DNA of 36,550 bases, taken from the NCBI GenBank assembly GCA_018663505.1, contig JABJQG010000044.1, forward strand, positions 1 to 36,550, read 5' to 3'. The DNA is from Pseudobdellovibrionaceae bacterium (lineage in GTDB: Bacteria; Bdellovibrionota; Bdellovibrionia; Bdellovibrionales; UBA1609). Shown here one piece after another: positions 4,088 to 36,406 of this stretch. The position numbers and the translations under genes are program-made. Within the stretch, counting starts at the first letter, position 1. Every line of letters starts with the position of its first letter. The notes below the pieces were generated by a model. It was not told the DNA's origin. It worked only from the letters and a program-made list of their open reading frames with translations, and did not search any database.

Positions 4088-4100
4088 AAGGGTATTCATC

Positions 4101-9670: not shown

Positions 9671-10153
9671 ATGAAAATAACTAAAAAAGAAATAATTATA
9701 TTAGCCGCTCTTGGCCTCGTTCCAGTAAAAGAAGTTTTAGCTTCTGATTTTGAAAATGGGATAAATTTAAACCCAGATAGCCCAAGCTTAAGAGCTGAAA
9801 ATTTACAAATCAATCCTGATACTCTTCGAGTGCTTAAAATGTTTTCTCAAATGAATGCAATAAATTTTGACAATGATGCCCATAAAATATTAATTAAACC
9901 AGAACAACTTCCTAATATATTAATTATACAACTACATAACTCAAAAGAAGTTGAATTTGATGAGGAAGCTAACGTATTTTTTTTGAAAGAAGAGTTTATA
10001 AATACATTGGCTAGGGATCATGCCTTTTCTCGCTTAGGGACAGTGCCTTCAATTGAAACAAATAAAGAAATTTTAAAAAGATTAAAAGAAAACTCAACTC
10101 CAGTTTTAAGAGAAGATCAAATTTTATATTCTCGCCATAGCTTTATAAGGTAA
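9671..10153 (+). CDS. Secreted 160-aa protein, candidate signal-peptide precursor
   Basis: Not recognised as a known family. A clear Sec signal peptide (basic start, core IIILAALGLVPV, cleavage expected after VLA near residue 24) exports it. The mature part is charged and helix-prone, without cysteines, ending in a Tyr/His/Arg-rich tail (ILYSRHSFIR). GGGG-type Shine-Dalgarno 7 nt before the ATG; 19 nt after the activator gene. Its neighbours, a peptide-binding protein and a HExxH peptide-modification-like enzyme, make a role as precursor or carrier of a modified peptide signal plausible. That is inference; a periplasmic accessory protein is equally compatible with the sequence. Confidence 0.65.
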   Translation: MKITKKEIIILAALGLVPVKEVLASDFENGINLNPDSPSLRAENLQINPDTLRVLKMFSQMNAINFDNDAHKILIKPEQLPNILIIQLHNSKEVEFDEEANVFFLKEEFINTLARDHAFSRLGTVPSIETNKEILKRLKENSTPVLREDQILYSRHSFIR

Positions 10154-10159
10154 TTAAAA

Positions 10160-11680: not shown

Positions 11681-11690
11681 GTAATTTATT

Positions 11691-18336: not shown

Positions 18337-18382
18337 CCATACAAAAAACTGTGACCCAATAACTTAAATAGTGGAGGTTGCC

Positions 18383-19981: not shown

Positions 19982-19999
19982 ACTAAAACGGAGGACTTT

Positions 20000-20761
20000 A
20001 TGAGAACAATTATTTTTGTTATTTGTTTCTCTGTGTTTCCTAGTACTATACTTGCTTTTGACTATTTTAATGGTTCAATTGATTACTGGAATAAGAAAGA
20101 GGTTAATCAGCCAAAGTCAAAGTTACCTGTTAAAAAACAAGAGAATGCAAAAAAAGAGAATGCAAAAGAAAAATTCAATTGGGATCGTTACATTAACCCC
20201 AAAACAACATCAGATTTAAAGGAAGTATTTCGGGAAGGAAAACATACGCCCCCAGCCCCACTTTTAGAGGCTGCACAAAATCCGACGGATGAAAATATTA
20301 AAAACTGGTTTGCTGTGGTGAAAAGAAAGAATCAGTTAATGTCTAGGCTTAATAAAAGAATGGCAGAATATCTAAAAAAATCTAAAGGCATAAAACCAGC
20401 CGAAAGAAATTTGATTGTAGCAAAACAAAATAAATTACAACGTCAACAAGTCGATTTTAAAAGATTTCGTTTTAGAATGTATTTTGAATCTTCTTGTCCA
20501 CACTGCAAGAGAATGATGAGTGAACTTGCTACTCTTCAAAACATGGGTTTTTTTGTTGAACTCAGGCAGATTGACAACAATAAAAAGTATGCAAAAGCAC
20601 TTCCTTTTGTTGTGAGCCAAGCAGCAAAAGTAGAACTTAAAGAGAAAAAAATAGACGCATGGCCTGTGCTTTTCATTGGTGATACTAAAAAGAAATTAAT
20701 CTATCGAATCAATGGTTATCAAAGCGCCAATGACATCCTTCTCACTCTACAAAGTAAATAA
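20000..20761 (+). CDS. traF: TraF-like periplasmic thioredoxin-fold protein
   Basis: 253 aa with a signal peptide (FVICFSVFPSTILAF, cleavage near residue 19). A basic, charged middle section and a helix-rich part precede a C-terminal thioredoxin-like domain with redox motif CPHC (166-169) and a cis-Pro loop AWPVLFIG. This matches TraF/TrbB of F-type systems, which assist disulphide bonding of TraU, TraH and TraN. The active site retains both cysteines, unlike F-plasmid TraF, so an oxidoreductase function is likely. GGAGG 6 nt before the ATG. Confidence 0.85.
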   Translation: MRTIIFVICFSVFPSTILAFDYFNGSIDYWNKKEVNQPKSKLPVKKQENAKKENAKEKFNWDRYINPKTTSDLKEVFREGKHTPPAPLLEAAQNPTDENIKNWFAVVKRKNQLMSRLNKRMAEYLKKSKGIKPAERNLIVAKQNKLQRQQVDFKRFRFRMYFESSCPHCKRMMSELATLQNMGFFVELRQIDNNKKYAKALPFVVSQAAKVELKEKKIDAWPVLFIGDTKKKLIYRINGYQSANDILLTLQSK

Positions 20762-20806
20762 ATTAAAAAAGTAAATCCAATAAAACCAAAAAAATGGAGG
20801 TTCATT

Positions 20807-21211
20807 ATGAACACAGCTGAAAATCTTACGAGCATTGACTCTTCTGTACGGCGGTTGCCTATGTTAGCAATATTTATAGCCACGGCAATTGTACTCTTTG
20901 TTTCAATTGATGCTCTTGCAAATATCCCTCGCTTGCCAGGTTCAGATCAAATGGACAAATTAACGGCGGCTGGTGATCTACTCAGGTTAGTCGATAGCTT
21001 CCTATTTAAGTTTGGCGCAAGACTGATGGCTGGACTTGCAGTGTTAGCGGCAGGGTGGAATTTAAAAGAACAGCGTTTTGGTGTAGCCGTGGTTTGTATT
21101 TTGGGAGCTATCGTCTTGGGAACGGCTCCGATGTGGGTAAAAAATATCTTCGATTTTGGGGGAGGAACACTTTTCTCATATATCTCTGAAATTGGATCAA
21201 GATATGTATAG
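20807..21211 (+). CDS. Conjugative pilin-like protein (TraA/VirB2-like)
   Basis: 134 aa. A long leader ends in hydrophobic LAIFIATAIVLFVSIDALA, with probable leader-peptidase cleavage after DALA. Two further hydrophobic helices follow (around FKFGARLMAGLAVLAAGW and FGVAVVCILGAIVLGTAPMWV), separated by a short basic loop (NLKEQR). This is the VirB2/TraA pilin layout, though it is longer than F pilin. Gene order (directly before traL) supports the call. GGAGG upstream of the ATG. Confidence 0.7.
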   Translation: MNTAENLTSIDSSVRRLPMLAIFIATAIVLFVSIDALANIPRLPGSDQMDKLTAAGDLLRLVDSFLFKFGARLMAGLAVLAAGWNLKEQRFGVAVVCILGAIVLGTAPMWVKNIFDFGGGTLFSYISEIGSRYV

Positions 21212-21515
21212 CTACGAATCTATGCGTGAAAAGCATGGAAGTCGAGTTAGCCAAACAATTGATTCTCCAATAATGGTTTTTGATTACTTTGAAATATCTG
21301 AACTATTTGTTGCTTTATTAGTAATTCTAATTTTTGGAGTAGTTTTTTATTCATGGGGATTAATGATTATTCTCTTAATCATAACGCTTGGGCTAGGGCC
21401 AGTTATAAGAAGAAGAAACAAAAAAGGAATCTTTTTTCATTGGCCATACCGCCATTTCAAAATGACTCTACCAGGAATCATCAACCCCAAAGGTAATAAA
21501 AAATATTCTGATTAA
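21204..21515 (+). CDS. traL: TraL-like (VirB3-like) membrane protein
   Basis: 103 aa from ATG 21204, which overlaps the pilin-like gene by 8 nt; a longer frame from 21156 lies within the pilin gene and has no Shine-Dalgarno. SQTIDSPIMVFDYFEISELFVALL resembles the TraL start (IDxPxxxxxxxxxEL). Two close transmembrane helices (LVILIFGVVFYSWGLMIILLIITLGLG) are followed by a basic stretch RRRNKK and an aromatic HWPYRH. TraL helps assemble the pilus at the inner membrane. Confidence 0.8.
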   Translation: MYSYESMREKHGSRVSQTIDSPIMVFDYFEISELFVALLVILIFGVVFYSWGLMIILLIITLGLGPVIRRRNKKGIFFHWPYRHFKMTLPGIINPKGNKKYSD

Positions 21516-21581
21516 AAGTTAGATTATTTTCACTTCAATCATCTCTAAATCAAAAAAATAAACACTCTATAAGGGAACTCA

Positions 21582-22454
21582 ATGGATATTCAACCGAAAC
21601 TCAAAGAATTGAGGGAAAGACTCACAAAGGGCATAAAGGTTTTGCAAATAATTCTCAAGACAATCTTTAAAAAAATAGAAAAGAAAAAACATGAAATAGG
21701 AGCAAAAATGATTGGCCCAATTGAAAAAGGATTTAACAAAGCCGAACTGGTGGCTCCCCCTCAAGGTAGCTTTGAGGGGGTTGATTTAAGTATACTTCCT
21801 AAATATATTGCCTATAAATCTGCTCTTTTAAAAGAAAAAATGATTTTGAATTATGTGGTAGCAATTATTTCAGTTCTATTTTTTTCTCATTATTTAGTTT
21901 CAAGATTAGAGATATCTAAGCTACACGGTCAACTCAGAGAAAAAGAATATATTTTAGCTCCAGGTGTACTGGATTTTACAAAAGCATCACCTCAAATGAT
22001 TCCCAATTCATATATACATGATGCAGCCACAGACTTTCTTTCTAGTTTAGGAAATATTAGTGCATCTAACATTGATGAACAATACTCCTCATTAAAGCGT
22101 TTTATGAGTAAAGAATTAAGGGTTCAGTTTTCCGTAGATACGGCTGATTGGATTGAACAAGTTAAAACCGATAATATTTCACAGATTTTAAAAGTTACTG
22201 ATGTTGAGATTACTTCAAACTCTAGCGGAGCGTACCAAGTCATCGCACTAGGTCGAGTTAGTTTTTACTCAGAACAACAATTTTTAGGACATGAAGATCA
22301 GGTAATTAAAATGATCTTAAAACTAGTGCCTCCTGAAAGCGGCAAAAGGTGGTATCTGCAAATTGGTTCCTTATCCTGGGAAAAAGCAGAAACGTTTAGA
22401 GCAAAATCAAATCTTTCAAAACCGAACTCAAAATCAAAACAAAATTCAAAATAA
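21582..22454 (+). CDS. traE: TraE-like (VirB8-fold) inner-membrane T4SS protein
   Basis: 290 aa, longer than usual TraE (about 190) because of a basic N-terminal extension of about 85 residues. One transmembrane helix (MILNYVVAIISVLFFSHYLVS) is followed by a periplasmic domain. Signatures of the TraE/VirB8 fold include LAPGVLDFTKASPQMIPNSYIHDAATDFLSSLGNISASNIDEQYSSLKRFMS and the late strands GRVSFYSEQQFLGHEDQ and WYLQIGSLSW. It forms the periplasmic inner-membrane part of the channel. The order traL-traE-traK-traB matches F-type operons. AAGGGA is upstream of the ATG. Confidence 0.82.
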   Translation: MDIQPKLKELRERLTKGIKVLQIILKTIFKKIEKKKHEIGAKMIGPIEKGFNKAELVAPPQGSFEGVDLSILPKYIAYKSALLKEKMILNYVVAIISVLFFSHYLVSRLEISKLHGQLREKEYILAPGVLDFTKASPQMIPNSYIHDAATDFLSSLGNISASNIDEQYSSLKRFMSKELRVQFSVDTADWIEQVKTDNISQILKVTDVEITSNSSGAYQVIALGRVSFYSEQQFLGHEDQVIKMILKLVPPESGKRWYLQIGSLSWEKAETFRAKSNLSKPNSKSKQNSK

Positions 22455-22472
22455 ATAAAATTGGAGATTCTT

Positions 22473-23333
22473 ATGAATATTAAAGACTATAAATATCTTA
22501 CCGATGTACTGTCGTATTTAAAGCCTTTTGTCTTACTATTTTGTAGACTTGTTACAATTGGACTGACGGTATTAATTTACTTCCTAATTGGTTTCTTTTT
22601 TGGAGCAAAAACTTGTCATGCAAGGACCATTTATTATGGGTCAGAGGTTGAAACGATCACTGTTGCTTATGGTGGCCCAACAATCTTTAGGTTCAATGAG
22701 GAAGTGAAAACAATTTCACAAGCCTCGAAGTTTAGTATTAAACCCGCAGACAATAACAACCCGAATTATACTACGCTTTCTGTTACGCCCCGATTTACAA
22801 AGGGGAAAACAAAAGTTTCATTTATCTTGGCAAATGGTGTGGTGGTGAATACTAAAATTGTCATTGTATCGAAATCAATTCCTGAGAAAACTGACTCGTT
22901 CTATGATTTGCAGCCAAAAGAACGACTTATTGAATCCTCTCAAAACTCAAAAGGGGCCAATATTTCAGAGCTTGAATTAATGAAATCTATGATTCGTTGG
23001 GATAATGTTGTTGGTTACAACATAAGAACTCTGGTGCGAAAAGTTAATACAGGAATCAAAGGGCTTTCAGCTAAACTTGTGCGTGTTTATACAGGGCCAA
23101 AATATAATGGATATATTTTTAAAGTTCGCAATAAATCACGTAAGACCTATGCCATTGATTTAAAAAGCCTGACTCTGGGTGTGCCAAATGTGGCTTTACT
23201 TACTCAGGTAGATCATAAAATTTTAAAATCATCAAAAACAAAGAGAAATATTACTTTTCTTAGAATAGTAGCAAAGCCAACATCAGTTTATTACAATATT
23301 ACGATTCCAATAGCTCCAATCGAGAAAAAATAA
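22473..23333 (+). CDS. traK: TraK-like (VirB9-like) secretin-domain protein
   Basis: 286 aa from ATG 22473 (TTGGAG 6 nt upstream; an in-frame TTG at 22461 is the Shine-Dalgarno region). A hydrophobic segment up to about residue 48 (LVTIGLTVLIYFLIGFFFGA) acts as signal. The mature protein begins with beta strands ETITVAYGGPTIFRFNEEVKTISQ, typical of the TraK/VirB9 N-terminal domain. The C-terminal half has YIFKVRNKSRKTYAIDLKSLTLG, a TraK-type beta-sandwich. It is expected to form the outer-membrane core ring with TraV and TraB. Confidence 0.82.
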   Translation: MNIKDYKYLTDVLSYLKPFVLLFCRLVTIGLTVLIYFLIGFFFGAKTCHARTIYYGSEVETITVAYGGPTIFRFNEEVKTISQASKFSIKPADNNNPNYTTLSVTPRFTKGKTKVSFILANGVVVNTKIVIVSKSIPEKTDSFYDLQPKERLIESSQNSKGANISELELMKSMIRWDNVVGYNIRTLVRKVNTGIKGLSAKLVRVYTGPKYNGYIFKVRNKSRKTYAIDLKSLTLGVPNVALLTQVDHKILKSSKTKRNITFLRIVAKPTSVYYNITIPIAPIEKK

Positions 23334-23364
23334 AATTCAACTAAATTTAATAAGGAGTATTGCA

Positions 23365-24615
23365 TTGAAGAGTATTCAAAGAGAATTGGTACGACTAAAA
23401 GGACTGGTAAGTAAGTTAGGAAAAGAAAAATATCTAATTTATATCAGTATACCTCTTACAGTAATGGGGCTGATTTACCTAGTTGGTAAGTTTGCAGACA
23501 ATAAAGTTCAAGTTTTTCATAAAACATCTGAACTAAGTTTCGCAGGAGGTAAGGTATTAAATAATAATGGTAAAAGTTTATATAAGAGAAAAGAAAAGAT
23601 ATTCTCTAAAAAATTTCAGCATATTAATACTAAAATGGGCAAGTTTGATGAAAGATTTGATAAAGTTAATGAATCACTAAACTTAATAAAAGAAGCATTA
23701 GATAAAAAAACAAAACTCGAAGAAGGCAAGAGTAAACCTCCTGACTCACAACAAACTAATGATGTGACATTTGGTATGCCAGCTAACGATCTAACAGCTA
23801 ATAAAGTTTCACCAAAAATTGTTAATGGCATGAAGGTCATAGGATCAGGTGCTAGGAAGCGAAATTTTGGGCGAAAGATCCGTGGGCCTTCAATTATTTC
23901 ATTTCCAGTGCAAACAAAAAATAAAACAAAATTAATGACGGTTAAACTTCCCCCTGGTTCATTTTTACGAGCAAAATTACTAACAGGTGTAGAAGCCCCA
24001 GAAGGAAAAGCTCTGCCCGTTTTATTACAGGCAGATTATGCATTTGTTGGCCCAAACAAAAGTCGAATAGACTTAACAGGTTGTTTTTTGATTGCTAAAT
24101 CAACGGGTAATATGTCCATTGAGCGAGTTGAAATGCAAGCAACAAAAATCTCATGTGTTGCTAAATCTGGCCGTATGTTTGAAAGAAAGATGAACGGCTT
24201 TGTGGCTGATGCCAAAGATAATTCATTTGCAGTGATGGGTCATGTTAATTCAAAACAAGATCGTGTGGCTGCCATGGCCTTTTTATCCTCAGTGGTAGAA
24301 GGCGTTGGTAAAGCTATTCAGCAAGCACAAACTACAACTCAGACTAATGCATCTGGTGGCTCTAGTTCAATGATAACTGGTAATCAAGGAAAGTATATTG
24401 CGGCTGGTGGTGTAGGAAATGCCGCCTCACAAGTTACTCAATGGTATTTAAAACATGCTCAAAATCTACTCCCAACAATTAATGTGGGGTCAGGTCAAGA
24501 CGTTTGGATTGTAAATCAAGATACTATTGATCTTCCAAATTGGTATTTCAGAGAAGAAAAGAAAAAATCATTAAAGAAAGATTTTTTATATTTTAGTCGA
24601 TTCCTCGACAACTAA
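23365..24615 (+). CDS. traB: TraB (VirB10-like) channel scaffold
   Basis: 416 aa, starting at TTG with AAGGAG 7 nt upstream. A single N-terminal transmembrane helix (YISIPLTVMGLIYLVGKFA) is followed by a coiled-coil (about residues 80-120) and a proline/charged linker. The VirB10/TraB beta-barrel core contains VKLPPGSFLRAKLLTGVEAP, PVLLQADYAFVGPN, GCFLIAKSTG and RVEMQATKISCV. Near the C-terminus the antenna segment AAMAFLSSVVEGVGKAI and the VNQDTIDLP end fit. It bridges inner and outer membranes in the T4SS. Confidence 0.92.
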   Translation: MKSIQRELVRLKGLVSKLGKEKYLIYISIPLTVMGLIYLVGKFADNKVQVFHKTSELSFAGGKVLNNNGKSLYKRKEKIFSKKFQHINTKMGKFDERFDKVNESLNLIKEALDKKTKLEEGKSKPPDSQQTNDVTFGMPANDLTANKVSPKIVNGMKVIGSGARKRNFGRKIRGPSIISFPVQTKNKTKLMTVKLPPGSFLRAKLLTGVEAPEGKALPVLLQADYAFVGPNKSRIDLTGCFLIAKSTGNMSIERVEMQATKISCVAKSGRMFERKMNGFVADAKDNSFAVMGHVNSKQDRVAAMAFLSSVVEGVGKAIQQAQTTTQTNASGGSSSMITGNQGKYIAAGGVGNAASQVTQWYLKHAQNLLPTINVGSGQDVWIVNQDTIDLPNWYFREEKKKSLKKDFLYFSRFLDN

Positions 24616-24647
24616 TTAAATCAACAAAACATAATAGGAGAAATCTA

Positions 24648-24989
24648 ATGAGAAGTATTCTTATACTTTTGGTCGCTATATTGTTGTCAGCTTGTTCGAC
24701 GACTAGGGCACCAAGTTTAAATATGCTGGAAAAGCGAAGTGACTACAGTGGGGTTGGACAAATTGAAGATGCCTTATCAAGTGTAAACTCACCCTTACTT
24801 GTTCCTCAAAGAACAAAACCAATAGTTACAGATATTTGGGTTCATCCACATGAAATGCCAACTGGTGATTATTTTAGAGGTGGGTGGATTAGAACCGTAA
24901 TTTCAAAAGCAAGATGGGAAGTAGAAAAAAAGCGGAGCCCATTAATTATCAGAAAGAAAAAATCAGTAAAAAAACGTAAGCGCAAATAA
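24648..24989 (+). CDS. traV: TraV-like lipoprotein (VirB7-like)
   Basis: 113 aa. The signal peptide ends in the lipobox LSAC (Cys16), so it should be an outer-membrane lipoprotein. The C-terminal segment VPQRTKPIVTDIWVHPHEMPTGDYFRGGWIRTVI follows the TraV pattern of Arg-x-Pro followed by an I-W-x-x-P stretch and a dipeptide D/G-Y. The tail is highly basic (RKKKSVKKRKRK). It lies in the standard position between traB and traC. ATAGGAGAAA is upstream of the ATG. Confidence 0.8.
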   Translation: MRSILILLVAILLSACSTTRAPSLNMLEKRSDYSGVGQIEDALSSVNSPLLVPQRTKPIVTDIWVHPHEMPTGDYFRGGWIRTVISKARWEVEKKRSPLIIRKKKSVKKRKRK

Positions 24990-25026
24990 TTCAAATAAAC
25001 ATTTTTTTCAACTTGGAGGTTTAATT

Positions 25027-27612
25027 TTGCAATCTCAACGAATCCCTATGCCTAAATCTATCGAAGAAGCTCTTTGTAAAAGAGAACTTTTCACAAAATC
25101 ACTATTTTCAAGGCCTGAATCTCTATCGAGCTTAATGCCTTATGACGGTTTTATTGAAGAAGAGAACATATTTCAGATGAAAGATGGCTCACTTGGAGCC
25201 GTTTTTGAAGTCGATCTACTAGAGCATGAATCAATAACAGAAAAACAGATATTAAGAGCCATTGCTTCAACAAAAAACTGGTTTTCCCTTCCTGAAAACT
25301 GCGTATTGCAAGTTTTGTATGAGCAATCTGCATATTCACAATTTGATAAAACCATTCAGCAAATTGAAGATAGTTATCAAGAGGCTCATTCAGTATCAAA
25401 AGTGCTTTTTTCAGAAAAGATTAAAAATTTAAAAAAATCATGTAAGAAAACAGACGACAAAACGCCGCTAAAACGTCGAACCATTTTGTCTATTCGTTAT
25501 TTCCCTGAAGTTAAAACCAAAATAAAGGCTAGTGAGTATTGCAAGAGAAGTGAGGCACTACTTCATAGGGAAATGAGTAGCTTTGTCCATGAGCTGCAAA
25601 CATTTCGGCATATCCTAAAAAATATTGAATCAAACTCCGAGCTAAATCTTAAATCGTTTAATGGTTCTGATCTTTTAGACTTTCTAAGGAAATTTTTTAA
25701 TCCAGCAACTTTTTATAAACGTGAATTTGCTCCTTATAATAAAAGAACTTCTTTATCAGACCAGTTTCTTTTTAATTCGCCAAAGCTAAATTATTCAGGA
25801 TTAGATCGAGAAGGTGTAAAGACTAGAACCCTAACACTCAAAACGTCACCGCTATATGCCTATGACGGTGGGATGGCGTATTTTGTAAGCCTTGATTTTC
25901 CATTTAAGCTTTCTTTGAATTTTTCATTTCCTTCTAAAACAAATGTGAAGAAATTTTTTGGAATTAAAGAATTTTTTCTTGAGAATACTTTGTCGGCAAA
26001 GGGAAAGATTCAAAAAGAAGAAATTAAAGAAGTTCAAGAAAAGCTTGCTAGGGATGATCGCTGCTTACAATTAACTTTTAATGTGATTGTTGAGGGGAAG
26101 TCTGATGAGGAATTAGACGAAAGAACAAGAAAAATCTGTCAAATCTTTCATAATAAACTTGAGTGTGAGATTATAGAAGAAGATGACATTGGGCTTGGGC
26201 TTTGCCTAAATTCATTACCGCTAAACTATACCCCCGATGCGGATTACTCAACGCAAAGATCTATTCGAGTTTTACGCTCTGATGCGTTGAAGTTTATCCC
26301 GATCTTTGATTCTTTCCGAGGTTTGAAAAAGTCGTTATCTTTTTTTCTTTCCAGAGAAAATAATATCGTTCCATTTTCTTTAACTGAAAACGAAACTTCA
26401 AACCATTCTGTACTTTTAAGCGACACAGGATCGGGTAAATCTGCGTTCGTGATTGAGTGCATTCAGGCAGCAAAACGTATGTCCCCTGAACCTATCGTAT
26501 TTATCATTGATAAAAAATCTAGCTACTCAATGCTGAGTGAATATTACGACGGAGAATTAACGGTCTTTGATCGAAATAAAAAAGTTCCATTCTCACCGTT
26601 TCGTGGAAAGTATGACGAGGAAAAAATAGCATTTTTGACAAAGATCATATCATTGGCAGTGAAACTAACCTCACCCTCTTACGAATTAGAAAGCGAACAC
26701 CAGACAGCAATAACTAAAGCCTTGAAACTGGCATATATAAAAAAATGTAATAGACAAGGGTTGTCTTATGTTGAAGGTGAGCTATTTAAGCAAGATGTGG
26801 ACGGCGACGTAGAGTTGTCTATGGAAGATTTTGTCGTAGAACTAGGTTCATTAGTTGACGACGGAAAAAACAAAACTAGAGAAGTTGTTGAATCGCTAAT
26901 TTCTAAGCTTAAACCTTTTTATGGTGATGGAATTTATGCAAAATTTTTCTCTGCCACTAACTCTGATTCATCAAGTAGTGAAAAACTTTTTTACATTTAT
27001 GATTTAGACGCTTTAGATGGCGACCCTGTGCTTCAAACTTTAATGACAATGAGTGTGATCGAAGAAATTAGATGTATTATTTCTCTTCCCTCCAATCAAG
27101 GCCGAACAGGTTTTCTTGTCATGGAAGAGTTTGCAATGCTAGGACGAAACAATCCTGCCTTTAGAGACTTCGCTATTGATTTTTGCGAAACCATGCGAAA
27201 AAAAAATTGTTGGCTATTAAGTTTGACACCAAGGCCACAGAATTACTTTGAGCTTGAAACAGGCAAAGCTTTTTGGGGAACAGCTAGTAACTATATTTTT
27301 CTCCAAATGAATCCAGATTCTTGTGATTTTATTGCAAAAAACTCATCTCTAATTGATGAGGCAAATAGTGAAATCATCAAATCACTTAGGACAAAAAATG
27401 GCGAGTATGCAGATGTTTTCTATATGAATAAGGAAAAATCGAAACAAGGAGCCTTTCGGTATAGACAAACATCACTTGATCGCTGGATGAGTCCCACTAA
27501 TGCGCTAGATGCAAGAGAAGCACTTAACGCTCTACAAACCCATGAAAACAAGTGGGAGGCATTGAAGTATTTAGCTGAAACCTATCCCAAAGGTGTGCCT
27601 CCTAAATCATAA
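25027..27612 (+). CDS. traC: TraC (VirB4-like) T4SS ATPase
   Basis: 861 aa, starting at TTG with TTGGAGGT about 8 nt upstream. The N-terminal TraC/VirB4 domain starts at YDGFIEEENIFQMKDGSLGAVFEVDLL. The C-terminal ATPase domain has Walker A DTGSGKS (466-472), the PIVFIIDKKSSYSML strand, Walker B GRTGFLVMEEFAMLG, and the NCWLLSLTPRPQNYF and NYIFLQMNPDS motifs of conjugative VirB4/TraC proteins. It energises pilus assembly and substrate transfer at the inner membrane. It is the largest and best conserved gene of the transfer region. Confidence 0.95.
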   Translation: MQSQRIPMPKSIEEALCKRELFTKSLFSRPESLSSLMPYDGFIEEENIFQMKDGSLGAVFEVDLLEHESITEKQILRAIASTKNWFSLPENCVLQVLYEQSAYSQFDKTIQQIEDSYQEAHSVSKVLFSEKIKNLKKSCKKTDDKTPLKRRTILSIRYFPEVKTKIKASEYCKRSEALLHREMSSFVHELQTFRHILKNIESNSELNLKSFNGSDLLDFLRKFFNPATFYKREFAPYNKRTSLSDQFLFNSPKLNYSGLDREGVKTRTLTLKTSPLYAYDGGMAYFVSLDFPFKLSLNFSFPSKTNVKKFFGIKEFFLENTLSAKGKIQKEEIKEVQEKLARDDRCLQLTFNVIVEGKSDEELDERTRKICQIFHNKLECEIIEEDDIGLGLCLNSLPLNYTPDADYSTQRSIRVLRSDALKFIPIFDSFRGLKKSLSFFLSRENNIVPFSLTENETSNHSVLLSDTGSGKSAFVIECIQAAKRMSPEPIVFIIDKKSSYSMLSEYYDGELTVFDRNKKVPFSPFRGKYDEEKIAFLTKIISLAVKLTSPSYELESEHQTAITKALKLAYIKKCNRQGLSYVEGELFKQDVDGDVELSMEDFVVELGSLVDDGKNKTREVVESLISKLKPFYGDGIYAKFFSATNSDSSSSEKLFYIYDLDALDGDPVLQTLMTMSVIEEIRCIISLPSNQGRTGFLVMEEFAMLGRNNPAFRDFAIDFCETMRKKNCWLLSLTPRPQNYFELETGKAFWGTASNYIFLQMNPDSCDFIAKNSSLIDEANSEIIKSLRTKNGEYADVFYMNKEKSKQGAFRYRQTSLDRWMSPTNALDAREALNALQTHENKWEALKYLAETYPKGVPPKS

Positions 27613-27626
27613 AATTGGAGGTAAAT

Positions 27627-28940
27627 GTGATCTTTAGGTATCTTACGCTTGGAGTTTTAATTGTCAGCCTGAGTAATTTTGCTCAGGCTGACTCAGGGAA
27701 TATCGACTACCGATCAACAAATGAATTTTCACCAAATGACTATCTTTTTGGTTCACATGGAAACCTTAAAGACCCTGTGTTTGATGTGTATAGAACGATT
27801 GATTTAAGTGTCGATATTGGTATTGGATCAGATTGTGGAAGAATAGATTTTAAAAATACTCTCAAGTCAGCCTTTACGAATGTTCTTGATGAAAAATATC
27901 TGGAAGGGATGGGCAAAGATATTTTAGCTGCAAGTCCAATGCTTTTAATTTCATATTTTTCGCCCACTTGGGCGGCAATTATTAAGCACACTAGGATTCG
28001 AGCTAATTTTTTGGCTCAACTTCGTTTGAATCAGTGTAAGGCAATTAACAAATTCGTAGACAACCGTGTTTCTGATTATTACGAAGAAAGATCAAGTTGT
28101 ATTCAAAAATCAATGAAAAGACATAACAACGATTTTGAAAAGGCAATGGAGGGTTGTAAGAACTATGCAGATTACAATATTTCAAAATGGGCTGGAGATG
28201 GTAAATCAGGAGAGAATAAACTGATTGAGTCAGCCGCAAAATGGGCTGGTTTTAAGGGTGAAAGTGCTGATCGAATTGTTGGTCTTACAAAGGCTTTTAT
28301 CGGTGATACAGTCATCAAGAAAGGAAGTGTCAGTGTTGATTTTGGGCCAAGAAGAGTCCAGTTAACACCACGTACTTACCTTATGGAAGTTAAAAATAAA
28401 ACTTATTCAAGACTCTGTAAAGGGTTACTAGGAAAGTTTGTTCGGTCAGGAGGGTACAAAGCAAATATTTATCGTACAGTGTCCGATGATGACTTAAAAG
28501 CAGTTAGCGGTACTGATAAAACTCTAATAGATAGACAAACAATTTTATCCCTTGCATATCTACCCTATAAAAAACGACGAGTAGCTTGTCGGAAGTTATC
28601 AGATGCAATTGCAATGAATAAATACTCTGATGATATGGGTAAAACTCTTGATTTTATTTCTTCTAAAATGGGTGCCAATCCACACTATCCAACAAAAAGA
28701 AAAGCTGAAATTGATCGTAAAAGAAGGTCGTTCAAAGACCAGACCGAGTTAACTCTAGCATTTGAAAAAAATAATACTGACCCATTGAATAAAGTTCTTT
28801 ATCAAATCAATTCAGAAGGAGCTAAATATATGGGGGCGGCTTCTGAAAGAGAGATGCAGTCTGACTCTGACATTCACCAATCGGAGCGTGTTGAGAATAT
28901 CTTTTTTGATTGTGCCGATGATATTGGTTGTTCTGAGTGA
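27627..28940 (+). CDS. TraH-like / ICE PFL_4711-family conjugation protein
   Basis: 437 aa from GTG 27627 (GGAGG 5 nt upstream; the frame opens at TTG 27615 inside the Shine-Dalgarno). The signal peptide ends at FAQA. Conserved features are the early IGSDCGRIDF motif, the KYLEGMGKDILAASPMLLISYFSPTWAAIIKHTRIRANFLAQLRLNQCKAI stretch, and Cys-containing segments (SSCIQ, EGCKNYA, RLCKGLLG). Such proteins are periplasmic or outer-membrane factors of mating-pair formation. The assignment between TraH and the PFL_4711 group is from memory of motifs. Confidence 0.72.
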   Translation: MIFRYLTLGVLIVSLSNFAQADSGNIDYRSTNEFSPNDYLFGSHGNLKDPVFDVYRTIDLSVDIGIGSDCGRIDFKNTLKSAFTNVLDEKYLEGMGKDILAASPMLLISYFSPTWAAIIKHTRIRANFLAQLRLNQCKAINKFVDNRVSDYYEERSSCIQKSMKRHNNDFEKAMEGCKNYADYNISKWAGDGKSGENKLIESAAKWAGFKGESADRIVGLTKAFIGDTVIKKGSVSVDFGPRRVQLTPRTYLMEVKNKTYSRLCKGLLGKFVRSGGYKANIYRTVSDDDLKAVSGTDKTLIDRQTILSLAYLPYKKRRVACRKLSDAIAMNKYSDDMGKTLDFISSKMGANPHYPTKRKAEIDRKRRSFKDQTELTLAFEKNNTDPLNKVLYQINSEGAKYMGAASEREMQSDSDIHQSERVENIFFDCADDIGCSE

Positions 28941-29635: not shown

Positions 29636-31144
29636 ATGTTTTCTTCTACCGCCTATGAAGCGTTCTATACCTATATCGGTATCTATCTACATGAGGCTTC
29701 AATCAAAATTATCACCTCACAGGAAGTTCTTGTCGGTCTTTTAATGCTCATTTTGGGTATTTGCTTTCTAATGGCAACTTGGAGGTATTTTTCAAAATAT
29801 ATGCCTAGTTTTCTTGGAAAAGGAAGAAGTGTTGGTGCCAGTGCGATTTTTAGAATATTTGTATGTTTTATTATTGGCGTATCAATCCTAAAAGTCGATT
29901 CCCCCTCCAGAGTTAAGAATTATAAACGCATGTCATGGCATACCAATAAATATATTGAATCACGTTTTCCATCTATAGAGGAATCATACCAAGTAAGTTT
30001 TATTTTTGACTTGTTTACTAGATCAGCAGAAGAAATTTCTCGATTAGCTTCGGTTCTCGTTGATGAATTGTTTAAAAAAACAAATTCAGAGCTTGATGCG
30101 CCCTCCGCATTTTATAAAGCCGTAATGTATGCAGGTTCAATGACAATTGATGATCTTGAATTAAAAGATAAAATTGATGTTTATACTAATAGTTGTTTTG
30201 CCAAAGTTATTCCATTATTGGGAGCTGCAAAGAAAAAAGATAAACTCGATGAATTTTTTAAGGCCAATGGAGTTGTTGATCAAGAATTAAATTTAATACC
30301 AATTCAACTTGAAGGTGGTCAGAAAATAACTTGTCTAGATTTAAAAGAAGAAGTTAGAGCGCATCTATGGAAATACTCTGAATCAAAAGGAGCGACTTTT
30401 ACACGTCACTATTCTGGACGCTACGGCATCCCAAGGGACAGGGAGATTACAGCCGAAAAAGAAAGAAATATGATTGCTTCCAGCGCACTTGTGAATCACT
30501 ACCTTTCAAAAACTGAAGATGTTTTTGGTACTCAGCGTGGTTCAGAAGTAAATGGAGCATTTACAAAATTTTTAATGGGATGGAAGAAGTTTAGGTCGTT
30601 CGACGGTTTCTTAACCCTTACTGACCCTCTATTTGGTATGAGAGATCAAGTTGGAGCAGCGTTAACAGCACAGAGGGCTGAAAAATTTTCTGAATACTTA
30701 CAACGTGCGCCTCACCTAAAGGGAATGGTTAAATTATTTTTAATAGCCCTATTCCCGTGGCTTGTCTTTTTTATAATTGCAGGAAGATGGAAAGTTTTAG
30801 TGTCATGGTATGCAATCTATGTGTCAGTCTTGCTTTGGACACCGATATGGACGCTGCTCTATCACCTGATGACTAGTATCGCACTTTCAACAGAGACAAT
30901 GTACGAATTTGGAAAGCTTTCTGATGGTATATCTCTCTATGGATCAAGTTTTGTTACAGCTAAACTTTATCAGTTCTATGCGATTTATTCATGGCTTCAG
31001 CTAATAGCAGGGCCACTACCAACTTTAATTCTAGGGTTTGGTCTATTTAGCTCTTTGCTAAAAGACTCTCAAGAAGAAGGCACCCCTGAGCCTGTATCAG
31101 CAGCTAAAGATGTGGGTACAACAGCCGTTAAAGCCGCCCTCTAA
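29636..31144 (+). CDS. TraG N-terminal-domain-like mating-pair membrane protein
   Basis: 502 aa. The N-terminus has transmembrane segments LVGLLMLILGICFLMATW and FRIFVCFIIGVSIL. A large soluble region follows, then a C-terminal membrane block (LFLIALFPWLVFFIIAG, YAIYVSVLLWTPIWTLLYHLMTSIAL and LIAGPLPTLILGFGLFSSLL) with W-T-P-I-W, which recalls the TraG-N/TrbL-like pattern of F-type systems. The C-terminal part of F TraG (entry exclusion, mating-pair stabilisation) is missing. GGAG 5 nt upstream of ATG. Confidence 0.72.
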   Translation: MFSSTAYEAFYTYIGIYLHEASIKIITSQEVLVGLLMLILGICFLMATWRYFSKYMPSFLGKGRSVGASAIFRIFVCFIIGVSILKVDSPSRVKNYKRMSWHTNKYIESRFPSIEESYQVSFIFDLFTRSAEEISRLASVLVDELFKKTNSELDAPSAFYKAVMYAGSMTIDDLELKDKIDVYTNSCFAKVIPLLGAAKKKDKLDEFFKANGVVDQELNLIPIQLEGGQKITCLDLKEEVRAHLWKYSESKGATFTRHYSGRYGIPRDREITAEKERNMIASSALVNHYLSKTEDVFGTQRGSEVNGAFTKFLMGWKKFRSFDGFLTLTDPLFGMRDQVGAALTAQRAEKFSEYLQRAPHLKGMVKLFLIALFPWLVFFIIAGRWKVLVSWYAIYVSVLLWTPIWTLLYHLMTSIALSTETMYEFGKLSDGISLYGSSFVTAKLYQFYAIYSWLQLIAGPLPTLILGFGLFSSLLKDSQEEGTPEPVSAAKDVGTTAVKAAL

Positions 31145-31232: not shown

Positions 31233-32807
31233 ATGAGTATATCTACTGGGAAATATCCCAACAATAAAGATCAGTTTAAAAACAAAAATACAAATAAACC
31301 TGATGCTTTTGGGGAAGCCATAAATGAGTTTCTACAAGAAAGCATTATGGTTTCAGCAATGGGAACATGGGCTTTAATAAAGTCTATTTTTTCACGCTAC
31401 TGTCCACTTACCCTTGTTTCCATTGCGGCAAGTGTTTATGCGGGATATTGGATTGCAAGTGAAGCGCACCACATTAGGTTTTTACATGAATTAGAACCTA
31501 ATTATTTAACATACAAACTTTTAATGCCGATGTATAAAATTCACCGAAATTACTATTGGGCCGGAATTTCATCACTACTTTATTTCCCTGTATTGATTAT
31601 GGTTGGACTCCATGTACGAAGTGTTAGAACAAAATTCCAGGCACTTTTTTATAAGATTGGTTTACAAAATGGTGTTGGTGATACGCCAAAACTTATTAAG
31701 AAAAAGCGAATCGACAAATACCGCATAAACTACATTTTTGATGCCAATGGTATTGGTCTTTCTGAGTTTGAAACAAAAAGAGAGAGGCTAGAGTCACACT
31801 TCCATCAAAATGTTGAATCCATCAAATATGGAAAGCATAAGGGACGAATTGAGTTATCTCTTAATAAGCAAGACTTTCCCGAAAAACTTACATATTTAGA
31901 AGTTGCAAAGAGAAACCCTTTACCAGCAAATAGTTTTTTTATTGGTCATTCGATGAACGGTGTTTTAACTCAAAACTTAGCAGAACTTCCTCACATATTA
32001 ATAGCTGGTGCAACTGGCTCTGGTAAAAGTGTATTTTTCAAACAAGCACTTGTTGGGCTTTTAGAGTCCACGCCAAATATTCAAATGTATCTTATTGACC
32101 TTAAAAGTGGTCTTGAAATGATCGACTTTGTGAAGGCTCCGAATGTTAAGGTTGTAAAGACTATGGAGGAAGCACTGAAGCTCTTAAGGCAGGTTGAAAG
32201 GGAAATGAAGTCTCGCTTTAAGTATCTTGAAAAGAGTGGGCGGAAGCAAATTGTTCCAAGCGTAGATAGAAAGGAGCGTATAGTTGTCGCTGTAGATGAA
32301 GCCTCAGAGTTGTATATGAATAGAAGTAGCTATGACCCCGATAGAGCTAATGCTATTGAAGCACGAAAGCTCGCAGATTCCATAGCAAAGCTTTCTAGGG
32401 CCGCAGCTATTCATTTAATGCTTGCAACACAAAAGCTCGAAAAACAGGTTATTCCAACCTCTGTTACTGAAAACATATCTGGGCGAATGGTATTCAAGGC
32501 CAACTCGTTCCAAGGAAGTAATCAAATGATTGGGTCTAAAGATGCAATGATGCTACCTGAAATTCCAGGAAGAGGAATATGGAGCTATGGTACAAAAAAG
32601 TTAACTATTCAGGCCCCATATATTGATGAGAAAATAATTAAAGCCAAATGTATTGAAATTGCAAAAGACTTTGAAATAGGACGACGAAAAAACTTCAATC
32701 CCATGATAGGTGCAGTAGAAAGAAAGCGAGCAACGGGCAGCCAAAGTATTGCCTATAGCGATCTTGAAAATTCAAAAACTGAAAAAAATAAAGGCAATAG
32801 AAAATAA
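31233..32807 (+). CDS. FtsK/SpoIIIE-type DNA translocase, probable coupling protein
   Basis: 524 aa. Two N-terminal transmembrane helices (about 65-80 and 110-128) precede an FtsK-type motor: Walker A GATGSGKS (259-266), the QMYLIDLKSGLEM strand, Walker B IVVAVDEASELY, AIHLMLATQKL and IPGRGIWSYG. The LATQ element, in place of the F-type TraD equivalent, marks the FtsK/Tn916-Orf21 group. As no VirD4/TraD gene is present, it is the likely type IV coupling protein, pairing with the replication-relaxation protein encoded next. GGAG 7 nt before ATG. Confidence 0.88.
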   Translation: MSISTGKYPNNKDQFKNKNTNKPDAFGEAINEFLQESIMVSAMGTWALIKSIFSRYCPLTLVSIAASVYAGYWIASEAHHIRFLHELEPNYLTYKLLMPMYKIHRNYYWAGISSLLYFPVLIMVGLHVRSVRTKFQALFYKIGLQNGVGDTPKLIKKKRIDKYRINYIFDANGIGLSEFETKRERLESHFHQNVESIKYGKHKGRIELSLNKQDFPEKLTYLEVAKRNPLPANSFFIGHSMNGVLTQNLAELPHILIAGATGSGKSVFFKQALVGLLESTPNIQMYLIDLKSGLEMIDFVKAPNVKVVKTMEEALKLLRQVEREMKSRFKYLEKSGRKQIVPSVDRKERIVVAVDEASELYMNRSSYDPDRANAIEARKLADSIAKLSRAAAIHLMLATQKLEKQVIPTSVTENISGRMVFKANSFQGSNQMIGSKDAMMLPEIPGRGIWSYGTKKLTIQAPYIDEKIIKAKCIEIAKDFEIGRRKNFNPMIGAVERKRATGSQSIAYSDLENSKTEKNKGNRK

Positions 32808-32822
32808 GTTTAGGGGAGCAAT

Positions 32823-33569
32823 ATGAAGCAACTATTAAAAGGAATGTTTCTGCATGAAATCGACATTCGATTTATTAAATACCTACATGCCATGAAGGTT
32901 GCAACATACGCACAGGCCACTAGAGATATATATTTGGGTTATCATCAAGATAGTGTTGGTAAGCGAATTAGAAAGATGGAAAGCAATAAGCTACTACAAA
33001 GTAGTAGAGCTAGAGTCCTACTTAATGGTAAGTGTGTTGTGCATTTATCAAAAAAAGGATTTTTACAGTTTGTGCGAAGAGGTGATGAACAGAGAGTTGA
33101 ATTAAAAAGTGATTCTGTAGCGCATGACCTTACATTAGTAGATTTACGAAATGCTTTTTTAAAGTCAAAGCAAGTTAAGCGGTATCTTTCAGAAAATGAA
33201 CTTCAGACATGGGGCCACTCTTTATGTGATGCTGCTTACTCTTCCTTTGTTAATCTAAATTCAGATGCCGTAGTAGACATTCAATTTACAAAGGGCATCT
33301 TGAGAGTGCCTGTTGAGTACGAAGCTCATCAAAAATCTGATGAACGATATGAGAAAGTATTAAATAAGTATTATAACAGTGATGAAACAGAAGTTGTTCT
33401 TTTTGTATGTGGTTCTAGTCAAATAATGAACAAAGTTATTGGATTAGAAAAATTAAAATACAAAGTCGAGCAACCAAAGTTCTTTTACTCTTTGGCTGAT
33501 AATATTTTAAAAAATGGATCTATGAGTTTCATTAACTGTAGAGATATTCTACTTACACTCGATGCATAA
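32823..33569 (+). CDS. Replication-relaxation family protein
   Basis: 248 aa. An N-terminal winged-helix region (IDIRFIKYLHAMKVATYAQATRDIYLG to GKRIRKMESNKLLQ, then a VVHLSKKG strand) is followed by the Replic_Relax core with VDIQFTKGILRVPVEYEAHQKSDERYEKVLNKYYNSDE, the family's E-x-D/H-x(3-5)-R-Y-x2-K-x3-Y pattern. These proteins act in plasmid/ICE replication initiation or DNA relaxation. It is the best relaxase or oriT-binding candidate, since no classical MOB relaxase is encoded. TAGGGGAG before ATG; coupled to the FtsK-type gene (15 nt apart). Confidence 0.8.
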   Translation: MKQLLKGMFLHEIDIRFIKYLHAMKVATYAQATRDIYLGYHQDSVGKRIRKMESNKLLQSSRARVLLNGKCVVHLSKKGFLQFVRRGDEQRVELKSDSVAHDLTLVDLRNAFLKSKQVKRYLSENELQTWGHSLCDAAYSSFVNLNSDAVVDIQFTKGILRVPVEYEAHQKSDERYEKVLNKYYNSDETEVVLFVCGSSQIMNKVIGLEKLKYKVEQPKFFYSLADNILKNGSMSFINCRDILLTLDA

Positions 33570-33575
33570 ATAAAG

Positions 33576-33591
33576 TGGCCGAAAGGTTGCA
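33576..33591 (+). promoter_or_regulatory. Sigma-54-like element with direct repeats
   Basis: TGGCCG, 5 nt, TTGCA: GG and GC doublets spaced 10 bp, -12 perfect, -24 one off consensus. It overlaps GAAAGGT direct repeats (33581-33587 and 33592-33598), spaced one helical turn. No intact CTACAA-N4-TTGTAG site lies upstream. Confidence 0.35.
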
Positions 33592-33908
33592 GAAAGGTGG
33601 TCGGAACATGATACCTACAAAACTATCTATACTATTGAAATCATTAACTACTCGAAATAAAATTTTTAAGACTGTATGTACTTTTCGACAATCTCACTGT
33701 CACATTGCCCTCACTCCATATCTATCCTCTATCTGCTGAATATACTCTATCATCACCCACTCAAGCACCTCGGCTGGCTCCACTCACGAATAGAAAACAA
33801 ATCTTTGATTGCTGTAGAACAATTGAAAGCACTTCTTTTGACTGTAAAATATGAGGGGTAATTTAACAAATTTTTACCAGGTGATTTCACAAAAAATTCA
33901 AAATTAAT

Positions 33909-33933
33909 AGGGGGCGTTCAGCCCTCTTTTTTT
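33909..33933 (+). terminator. Rho-independent terminator
   Basis: Stem AGGGGGC and GCCCTCT (one G-T pair), loop GTTCA, followed by seven T. It separates the transfer region from the right-end gene block. Confidence 0.75.
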
Positions 33934-33958
33934 AATCAAAAAAAATGGAGGATCAAAT

Positions 33959-34279
33959 ATGTTCTTTTCGGACGAGCAATGGGCAGAGTTATGCCCACTT
34001 TTACCGATGTACCAACTATCACTCAAAGGAGGCAGGCCAAGATTAGATAAAAGAAAAATACTTGAAGGTATTATATTTGTTTTTCAAAATCGAATACCTT
34101 GGAAGGGAGTTCCAAAGGTTTACGGGTCAGGAACCGCATTAAATAATTACTTTAGAGAGTGGGCGGAAAATGGAGTTTTTCACGATCTAAAAGAACATCA
34201 GTTTTCAATCATTCATTGTCTCGACTGGGACAAGATCAACGCAATCAAAAAATCCACTGAGCAACCTGCTCAAAACTAA
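33959..34279 (+). CDS. Stand-alone IS5-type transposase N-terminal domain (DUF4096)
   Basis: 106 aa covering the DUF4096 DNA-binding region: SDEQWAELCPLLP, KGGRPRLDKRKILEGIIFVFQNRIPWKGVPKVYGSG and FREWAENGVFHDL. These are the start of IS5/ISL2-type transposases. The DDE catalytic domain is absent and the frame ends cleanly in a stop (34277-34279), with a good Shine-Dalgarno (TGGAGG 9 nt upstream) and no IS ends visible. It may be a domesticated DNA-binding protein. The alternative is an IS remnant, though the intact start signal and syntenic spacing argue for a retained gene. Confidence 0.75.
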   Translation: MFFSDEQWAELCPLLPMYQLSLKGGRPRLDKRKILEGIIFVFQNRIPWKGVPKVYGSGTALNNYFREWAENGVFHDLKEHQFSIIHCLDWDKINAIKKSTEQPAQN

Positions 34280-34301
34280 TTACCAAAGGATATTTAATAC
34301 T

Positions 34302-34667
34302 ATGGAAGATTCAATTAAGAATGAGGGCATTGCTACGCCTAAAAAGAAAGTGGTGAACAACACAACTCCAATTCGAGTACGAAAAGCTACATCTAGGACT
34401 ATTCGGACAGTTTTAAACAAGCTTAATAGAAAACAGCTCGGTAGGCGAGTCACAGTGGATGATGTAGTGGCAAAGGCATTAACTATGTTAACAGATGAAT
34501 CCTTAGAGGAGGTTAAGCAGTCTACTTTTTCAAGCAAGGATCACCTTGAATTACAGTACCAAGAATATTGTCAAAAAAACGGACAAGTTACCAAAGAAAA
34601 ATTTCTTGATATGCTGCTTAAAGCTGGTTTACCCACTCTGAAGAAATCGCCAGAAAGCGACTCATAA
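34302..34667 (+). CDS. Small basic protein, possible DNA-binding accessory factor
   Basis: 121 aa. A basic N-terminal half (TTPIRVRKATSRTIRTVLNKLNRKQLGRRVTVDDVVAKALTML) has the look of a short strand followed by two helices, compatible with ribbon-helix-helix relaxosome or partition factors but not diagnostic. The C-terminal half is polar and helical. AAAGGA is upstream of the ATG; 22 nt after the DUF4096 gene, likely the same transcript. Confidence 0.55.
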   Translation: MEDSIKNEGIATPKKKVVNNTTPIRVRKATSRTIRTVLNKLNRKQLGRRVTVDDVVAKALTMLTDESLEEVKQSTFSSKDHLELQYQEYCQKNGQVTKEKFLDMLLKAGLPTLKKSPESDS

Positions 34668-34750
34668 AATTCTTAAAACTCAACGACATCACTGAATAAA
34701 TTTTCTTGGCGTTCCGCCATTTTTCCGTGATTTTCCCTGGAGAAAATGCT

Positions 34751-35035
34751 ATGTTTAATGAAGATAAAAAAGTTATTAGTATGCCGTCTTGTGCGTCTAC
34801 TGATGACAAGCTCTTTGATAATAAAATAGAAGTAATAATGGCGTTAAACCATCATGTGTTTAACGAAAAAGAAGCAGCTTTTTACTGTAGGTGCAAGGTT
34901 GATAGCATACGTTATCATGCACTGAGGTCAAGAAAGCTGACGTTTTGTGATTTTACTAAAGATGGATTGGTCTTTCTCAAATCTGACCTTGATTCGTTTC
35001 TGCAACTTTCTAGAAAGCAGGGCTATCGAGGCTAA
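34751..35035 (+). CDS. Excisionase-like HTH protein
   Basis: 94 aa from ATG 34751, with CTGGAG 8 nt upstream; the longer frame from TTG 34706 lacks this signal. A compact winged-helix/MerR-type HTH (VFNEKEAAFYCRCKVDSIRYHALRSRKLTFCDFTKDGLVFLKSDLDSFL) has the E/K-x-A-A-x-Y-C-x-V turn and VFLKSDLDSFL end of HTH_17 excisionases. It lies 12 nt before the integrase gene. Likely the recombination-directionality factor. Confidence 0.7.
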   Translation: MFNEDKKVISMPSCASTDDKLFDNKIEVIMALNHHVFNEKEAAFYCRCKVDSIRYHALRSRKLTFCDFTKDGLVFLKSDLDSFLQLSRKQGYRG

Positions 35036-35047
35036 AGGAGAAAAACT

Positions 35048-36406
35048 ATGAATGAATTAGTACAAATTGATGTATCTATAGAGTATGCCCCAAAAGTTTA
35101 TGTGCATAAACGCAAATGGGGTTGGTACTGGAAGTTTGAGCTTCCTAATGGGAAATGGTTTTATGGTCGTGCTCCTGGCGATGATGAACAGTCAGCCAGG
35201 AGAAATGCTAGTAAAAAGGAAAGAGAACTTGCTAAAGGACTTTTCAATAAAAAAGAAGTTGAAAAACTTCAACAAAGTTCTAATAAGCTTTCGACTTTTG
35301 AAATGGCAATTAATGATTATATAGACCATCTTCAAGCTGAAGGAGTTTCACCCAACTATATTAGCAGTGAGAGGGCTACGTTAGCTCCTTCCGCTACGAT
35401 TTTAGAAAGTAAGTTTAGAGTGAAGTATGTTCATAAACTTACTGAGGATGAAGCCTATACTTTTCGGAGACATTTACTTGAACGTGTAAAAGCTGAAGAA
35501 ATTAAAAGAGTAACTGCTTTTAATAATCTTAATGCGATGAAACGCTTGTTTAAATGGCTAAAGAAAAGAAAAATGATCCTTCAAAACCCTTGGTTGGAAG
35601 TCGAAGCCATTCCAGTACCGAAAGAAGAAAGGGCAAGAACAGTTGCCCCTTCAAGTGAGATACTTCCTCAATTGTTATCTGCAAACTATACACATCGCTA
35701 TGAGTTCCCAATAAAAGAATTTGCTTATGGGCTTTTTCGGACGGGAGCACGTAAAGAAGAGTTGTTGTATTTAGAAGTGGATGATGTGAATTGGGAAACA
35801 GGGCTATGGATTATTCGACCAAAGGAATGTCCTATTAAGCATGGAATGAAATGGTCGCCCAAATATGGAAAGACCAGAGAAACAATTATTCCTGCTGATG
35901 TTTTGGAGATGTTGAAACCTTTAGTTGAAAGGGCCATTAATCACCGAGTTGTCGGTTATACTCCAAATAAAAAAGGTAAAATGATTCCGGTTGATGCGCG
36001 ATTTATTTTTACAATGATTGATCGTCGTTTATCTAGCCAGAGCCAAGAACCTATTTACAGGAGATCCGACTCAGTTCGGGGTGCCTGGGGAGCCTTATTT
36101 GTGGCTGCTGGTTTAGCAGAGGCCAAAGAAAGTTCAAGTCCAAGCACAAGGAAGTATAAAGACGGTAAAAAGATGCGGACAGACTACAGTGTACCATTTA
36201 CAAGGCATGATATGCGAAGAGGATTTAACCTAGCGGCAAAAGAAGCTGGTATGTCTTTAGATGAGAGATCATCAATTCTTGGGCATGGTCGTGAAGTAAA
36301 TGAAAATCATTATTGTGGAAAACCGAAACTAGATACCAAAAAAATTGCAGAAATACTTAACGAGCGAATGTGGAAAAATGAAAATGGACTGAAGGGTGTG
36401 GGGTAA
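35048..36406 (+). CDS. int: Tyrosine recombinase (ICE integrase)
   Basis: 452 aa. An N-terminal Arm/SAM-like part (residues about 20-170) precedes the catalytic domain: first Arg at 235 (FRTGARKEELLYLEVDDV), box II HxxR His387 and Arg390 (TRHDMRRGF), His413 (LGHGREVNENHY) and nucleophile Tyr422. All catalytic residues are present, so the enzyme looks active. AAAGGAGA lies 8 nt before ATG. The gene ends 144 bp from the window edge, so the matching attachment site could be just outside. Confidence 0.93.
   Translation: MNELVQIDVSIEYAPKVYVHKRKWGWYWKFELPNGKWFYGRAPGDDEQSARRNASKKERELAKGLFNKKEVEKLQQSSNKLSTFEMAINDYIDHLQAEGVSPNYISSERATLAPSATILESKFRVKYVHKLTEDEAYTFRRHLLERVKAEEIKRVTAFNNLNAMKRLFKWLKKRKMILQNPWLEVEAIPVPKEERARTVAPSSEILPQLLSANYTHRYEFPIKEFAYGLFRTGARKEELLYLEVDDVNWETGLWIIRPKECPIKHGMKWSPKYGKTRETIIPADVLEMLKPLVERAINHRVVGYTPNKKGKMIPVDARFIFTMIDRRLSSQSQEPIYRRSDSVRGAWGALFVAAGLAEAKESSSPSTRKYKDGKKMRTDYSVPFTRHDMRRGFNLAAKEAGMSLDERSSILGHGREVNENHYCGKPKLDTKKIAEILNERMWKNENGLKGVG

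Follow-up and report, generated by a model that had tools for sequence, protein, structure and literature searches.

Coupling proteins of the VirD4 type have been described in a 2025 review as serving all T4SSs of gram-negative bacteria, with TcpA limited to a subset of gram-positive systems (PMC12857230). TcpA-type coupling proteins have been described in gram-positive FA-type systems, together with MOBT or MOBM relaxases (PMC12857230, PMC5357655); the relaxase of Tn916, Orf20, is of the MOBT (Rep_trans) type (PMC12857230). A further relaxase superfamily, MOBC, corresponds to the Replic_Relax family (PF13814) and is related to PD-(D/E)XK nucleases (PMC5357655). In its prototype, TraX of pAD1, mutagenesis confirmed a PD-(D/E)XK-type active site, and a covalent intermediate was not seen (PMC12857230). 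Among streptococcal integrative mobilizable elements (IMEs), TcpA is reported never to occur with MobC (PMC5357655). The MOBC system of the plasmid CloDF13 pairs MobC, a nuclease of about 243 aa, with the coupling protein MobB, which is of the VirD4 type and has a TraG-D_C domain; the plasmid is mobilizable and lacks a channel of its own.

The DNA analysed here (the window) is the entire contig C55, 36,550 bases of the 3.78-Mb draft genome of a Pseudobdellovibrionaceae bacterium; no overlap between its ends, as a circular contig would show, was found. Among named genomes, its closest relatives are a Halobacteriovorax metagenome genome (locus L004, in genome G047) and an Oligoflexales one (L005). 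An operon for an F-type mating channel occupies 17302-28940 on the plus strand, identified by Pfam and NCBIfam matches of which several are weak, and its order is kept in G047 and on contig C49 of the same genome. The operon comprises TraU, a GspE/PilB-like ATPase, a thioredoxin-like protein, TrbC-like and TraL-like proteins labelled by position only, TraE, TraK, TraB (TrbI), TraV, TraC and TraH. A TraG-N-like channel protein follows at 29636-31144 on the plus strand (TraG_N, E 7e-5, under the cut-off; 77% identical to its G047 homologue) and lies directly upstream of the two genes considered below. Seven members of the MPF type F set are therefore present in the window (TraC, TraU, TraH, TraV, TraE, TraK and TraB, some under the cut-offs), and TraN, TraW, a TraI-like relaxase and TraD gave no match there, in keeping with the sequence-only reading, which had described an F-type channel without these four proteins. 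The PilB/GspE-type ATPase inside the operon (18371-19981), conserved in G047 and C49, carries an MshE-like cyclic di-GMP-binding domain (NF053729, 49.2 bits, cut-off 38); to our knowledge, no F system with a cyclic di-GMP-binding ATPase of this type has been described.

The element carries several other modules. On the 3ʹ side of the gene pair lie, in order, a DUF4096 protein, a 121-aa protein, an excisionase-like protein and a tyrosine integrase. The first of these (106 aa, 33959-34279) consists of the DUF4096 domain alone, which is the N-terminal part of IS4/5 transposases; it is 69% conserved in G047, where it also precedes the integration genes, and is possibly a domesticated DNA-binding protein. 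The 121-aa protein (34302-34667, plus strand) may, from a reading of its sequence, be a ribbon-helix-helix relaxosome accessory. Family searches gave no significant match for it, and its homologues lie beside the MOBP module of C49 (37% identity) and near the motor-nuclease pair in loci L044 and L045. The integration module at the end of the element (34706-36406, plus strand) consists of a 109-aa protein, labelled excisionase-like by position and sequence reading, and a 452-aa tyrosine integrase (35048-36406, plus strand; Phage_integrase, E 1.2e-6), the G047 homologue of which abuts a tRNA-Leu gene. A stretch at 136-201 on the minus strand resembles the 3ʹ part of tRNA-Leu (CAA) and is a possible att remnant; ARAGORN found no tRNA and Rfam no match in the window, and a search of G047 for direct repeats marking att sites found none. 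A diversity-generating retroelement at 2050-6015 is carried with the element and includes an Lcl_C variable-type protein (2050-4035), bAvd (4101-4460, E 1.9e-20) and a reverse transcriptase (4837-6015). Additionally, a sigma-54 response regulator, a solute-binding protein of family 5 and a hybrid histidine kinase accompany the element (8248-14349), are inverted in G047 and perhaps form a sensing module for transfer.

The first gene of the pair (31233-32807, plus strand) has an open reading frame for a 524-aa motor that matches Pfam FtsK_SpoIIIE with an E-value of 8.5e-22. The protein has hydrophobic helices at its N-terminus, a Walker A motif (GATGSGKS) at residues 259-266 and a Walker B motif ending in DE at 355-356 (VDEA). 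Members of its family are about 460-530 aa long, whereas chromosomal FtsK proteins of the same genomes are about 700-850 aa. When a profile of 19 members was compared with solved structures, the best matches were 6O1W-Z (E 2.8e-60), deposited as "DNA translocase coupling protein" and which we take to be the TcpA entries of pCW3, ahead of FtsK (1e-40) and the ESX ATPases; VirD4/TrwB chains were absent among the structure matches at E 0.001. Likewise, TrwB, TraG-D_C and T4SS-DNA_transf domains were not matched in the motor, whereas they were matched in four VirD4-type proteins from the same bacteria. By these comparisons, the motor is an ATPase of the FtsK/SpoIIIE fold, and TcpA of pCW3 is the solved structure nearest to its family; the earlier claim of an FtsK-type rather than a VirD4-type coupling motor is upheld. 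Because it stands with an F-type operon here and with VirB-type operons in relatives, and with no gram-positive FA-type system, the motor is called TcpA-like rather than a member of TcpA. In the motor tree, the single Bacillota TcpA row sits on a very long branch without a firm placement, and a structure prediction of the motor (pLDDT 37) was too poor for a fold search.

The second gene (32823-33569, plus strand) starts 15 bases after the motor gene and encodes a 248-aa protein with a winged helix (residues about 1-90) followed by a PD-(D/E)XK-type core with H101, D148, E165 and K171. The NCBIfam model "MobC family replication-relaxation protein" (NF041423) matches it with an E-value of 6.7e-6 and 25.6 bits, far under the 200-bit cut-off, and matches 12 of the 21 partners in the family. 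Pfam PF13814 was not matched in this protein or anywhere else in the genome; a remote paralogue on contig C6 scores 22.1 against a cut-off of 25.3, which suggests that the profile misses this clade. An 11-member nuclease profile aligns with a CloDF13-type MobC (hhalign, E 4.9e-8, probability 94.8), and in this alignment the motif D-A ... E-x-E-x(3)-K-S-x-x-R-Y falls in register. That MobC was taken from a close Klebsiella plasmid because mobC is not intact as a reading frame in the reference record of CloDF13. Across the aligned proteins, MobC included, H101, D148 and E165 are identical in all 33 and K171 in 28. An AF2 model of the 248-aa protein (pLDDT 74.7) shows the winged helix, after which the secondary structure follows the nuclease-fold order alpha-beta(3)-alpha-beta, and the sole PDB match under E 0.001 for the whole chain is the restriction endonuclease BsaWI (E 5.6e-4). 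However, whole-chain fold matches were dominated by the winged helix, which is MarR-like, and a second-look structural alignment listed winged-helix proteins alone, so that the nuclease core was barely tested there. Taken by its sequence, the protein is homologous to MobC of CloDF13-type plasmids and is a candidate for a divergent MOBC-type relaxase. This changes the conclusion drawn from the sequence alone, that a replication-relaxation protein stood in for a missing MOB relaxase: Replic_Relax is itself a MOBC relaxase family, so the protein is a relaxase candidate and not a substitute for one. The same reading had called the processing module Tn916-like. The motor does resemble the TcpA/Orf21 side of such elements, but the relaxase does not fit, since that of Tn916 is MOBT and PF02486 (MOBT, Rep_trans) gave no match in the 248-aa protein at E-values up to 1.

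Each half of the pair thus recalls a different known system. As in CloDF13, a coupling protein gene is followed immediately by that of a MobC nuclease, and the two nucleases have the D, E-x-E and K-S-x-x-R-Y motif in common; unlike MobB, the motor of the window is of the FtsK/TcpA type, and unlike CloDF13, the element encodes a channel. With TcpA of pCW3 and the coupling proteins of the Tn916 superfamily, the motor shares the FtsK-type ATPase and the N-terminal membrane part, but the window and its relatives have F-type or VirB-type channels and a MOBC-type partner. The same order of two genes, overlapping, is also found in FtsK/replication-relaxation pairs of Bacillus phages (Pony/Page type) and Bacillota plasmids, although these proteins are shorter (about 390 and 190 aa) and no T4SS is adjacent. 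PF13814 was matched in the proteins of the Bacillota plasmid pairs; a comparison by hhalign with one of these plasmid partners gave no significant match, which leaves it unproven that the two kinds of pair descend from a common ancestor. The TcpA-like motor, the MOBC-type nuclease and the gram-negative channel are a new combination of known parts, with a function in transfer that is proposed from sequence, and the description of the locus as an unusual hybrid, in which such a pair would serve an F-type channel, is apt.

The two genes are one co-inherited unit that is conserved and widespread in the phylum. The nuclease gene lies directly 3ʹ of the motor gene in 21 of 21 family loci, starting between -16 and +29 bases from the motor end, and directly downstream on the same strand in all 30 of the best-scoring phylum loci, a set that is not random, overlaps the 21 and includes two loci with a called start more than 60 bases off. 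Of ten chromosomal-length FtsK genes checked, none has a nuclease neighbour. Moreover, motor and nuclease protein distances are correlated over 40 loci (r = 0.89, with no shuffle above 0.16), and the pair keeps its order in relatives at identities of 70/48% and 55/45%. Counted from the rows of the phylum search, the short motor occurs in 73 of 369 genomes from about 15 families, and the E-values leave a gap between the short motors, below 1e-67, and chromosomal FtsK, above 1e-50. No relative of the motor or nuclease was found among viral contigs, and none of the group B nuclease among plasmids; a search of open-licence papers found nothing on conjugation modules of Bdellovibrionota.

A sister F-type element on contig C49 of the same genome has the same gene order (TraC 55-58%, TraH 45% and TraG 43% identical). 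There, a VirD4-type coupling domain is naturally fused to the N-terminus of TraU (L071:5853-8108), a domain that TraU of the window lacks, and a NikA-like protein and a MOBP relaxase (PF03432, 1.3e-21) lie between TraG and the homologue of the 121-aa protein with its integrase-like gene. The relaxase slot that these two genes fill in C49 is filled in the window by the motor and nuclease. Elsewhere in the family, the genes before the pair are of the VirB type at most loci, and its immediate upstream neighbour is VirB10-like; the VirB-type label rests on the VirB10 profile, and L044, which has no such match on its contig, was labelled through its near-identical sister L045. In the motor tree, which is rooted for drawing only, all six motors that have TraG upstream group in a single clade (100/99), and two changes are needed for the VirB-type ones, the pattern expected from one acquisition of the cassette by an F-type element out of a VirB-type lineage. 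Most likely, the cassette was taken from a VirB-type element. A still smaller setting is provided by contigs C51 and C52, which share a 5.9-kb block, 85% identical and present twice in one genome (L026:5931-11840 and L030:2200-8104), in which the motor and nuclease are accompanied by a serine recombinase, a sigma-like protein and a 72-aa protein, and from which tra genes are absent. By analogy, this block has a layout like that of an IME, and its compact order of coupling protein, MOBC relaxase and serine recombinase resembles class 8 of the streptococcal IMEs, except that VirD4 and MobC accompany the serine integrase there and a TcpA-like motor takes the place of VirD4 in C51 and C52. Related nucleases also lie near VirD4-type proteins in genomes G041, G021 and G047; the nuclease thus turns up beside either type of coupling protein, as a relaxase would be expected to do.

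From gene content, homology, conserved residues, linkage, the exchange of slots and the tree, we infer, with a probability of roughly 0.76, that the pair is inherited together as the coupling-and-processing cassette of an integrative conjugative element, with a MOBC-type protein as the nicking enzyme and a TcpA-like motor in the place of VirD4/TraD on an F-type channel. The winged helix of the 248-aa protein would bind the oriT of the element and its PD-(D/E)XK-type core would nick it. The 524-aa membrane motor, in place of VirD4/TraD, would then dock the processed DNA to the channel (TraC, TraG, TraU, TraH and others) and pump it through. The cassette would in this way fill the role of the VirD4-TraU fusion and the NikA/MOBP set of C49. 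No oriT was recognised in the element. The segment just downstream of the pair (33570-33958), which had been put forward as the target DNA, has no blastn similarity to G047; this is not decisive for an oriT, and it leaves the proposal unsupported. Repeats in 33500-34310 of the window are short and unremarkable, and none in the intergenic DNA of the C51 mini-element was convincingly oriT-like. In G047, four 21-nt AT-rich palindromic repeats (L004:12857-12957) lie upstream of the gene for a DUF3560 protein; none was seen in 33500-34310 of the window.

A different version of the transfer hypothesis, which seems rather unlikely, is that the motor and MOBC nuclease form a portable cassette that is common in Bdellovibrionota, can be fitted to unrelated gram-negative channels (VirB-type and F-type) and moves duplex or otherwise unpiloted DNA through them. 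It draws on the proposal that TcpA moves duplex DNA, and on the lack of an observed covalent relaxase-DNA intermediate for MOBC.

The main rival reading is one of DNA maintenance: the pair would be an FtsK-type module that segregates or maintains the excised circle, or serves replication, and conjugation would use a relaxase and coupling protein supplied in trans, such as MOBP and VirD4 of C49. Pairs in the Bacillus phages poppyseed and 268TH007 and in Bacillota plasmids have no T4SS genes nearby and may have another DNA role there, and the genome of the window does possess a MOBP relaxase and a VirD4 domain. However, a genome-wide search for MOBP relaxases found no match in G047 (4.9 Mb), which holds the intact relative, nor in G009, G015, G024 and G041. 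Within the element, neither VirD4/TraD nor an HUH relaxase was found. The earlier description would have been undone by a canonical relaxase and TraD located beyond the window, and these were sought in the long-flanked relative G047: in the stretch bounded by the histidine kinase gene and the integrase beside tRNA-Leu, there is no other relaxase or coupling candidate among genes mostly identified by BLAST to window proteins rather than each by profile search, and the sole unmatched sizeable gene encodes the DUF3560 protein. The cassette also sits in the exact NikA/MOBP slot of the sister element, and after VirB10 in VirB-type operons. A maintenance function is judged unlikely.

Less probable by a good way is a regulatory role, in which the 248-aa protein is a transcriptional regulator of tra genes, with a winged helix and a dead nuclease fold, and the true relaxase has gone unrecognised; the tyrosine recombinase at 35048-36406, for instance, would then act in the manner of TcpM of pCW3. 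TcpM, the partner of TcpA, is indeed a tyrosine recombinase (PMC12857230), the fold matches are mostly to MarR-like winged helices, and the paralogue on C6 stands alone, without an adjoining coupling-protein gene. Against this, the catalytic-type residues D148, E165 and K171 are retained, the C51/C52 mini-elements pair the cassette with a serine and not a tyrosine recombinase, and C49 has a 401-aa gene in the integrase slot in addition to its MOBP relaxase. That the element has decayed and the cassette is no longer under selection is highly improbable: the contig is a draft and stop codons interrupt the motor gene in some distant relatives, but both genes of the window are open, the operon retains 65-81% protein identity to G047 and the motifs are kept.

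As a coupling-and-processing cassette, the pair would be an exception both to the rule that VirD4 serves all gram-negative systems and to the pattern in streptococcal IMEs, where TcpA is never found with MobC. The presence of two F-type elements with different processing modules in one genome makes the exchange of coupling protein and relaxase directly testable. Furthermore, elements of this kind would seem to lack both a MOB relaxase and a coupling protein when searched with standard profiles, as PF13814 finds nothing in the genome of the window; part of the class of "MOBless T4SS" may therefore be conjugative.
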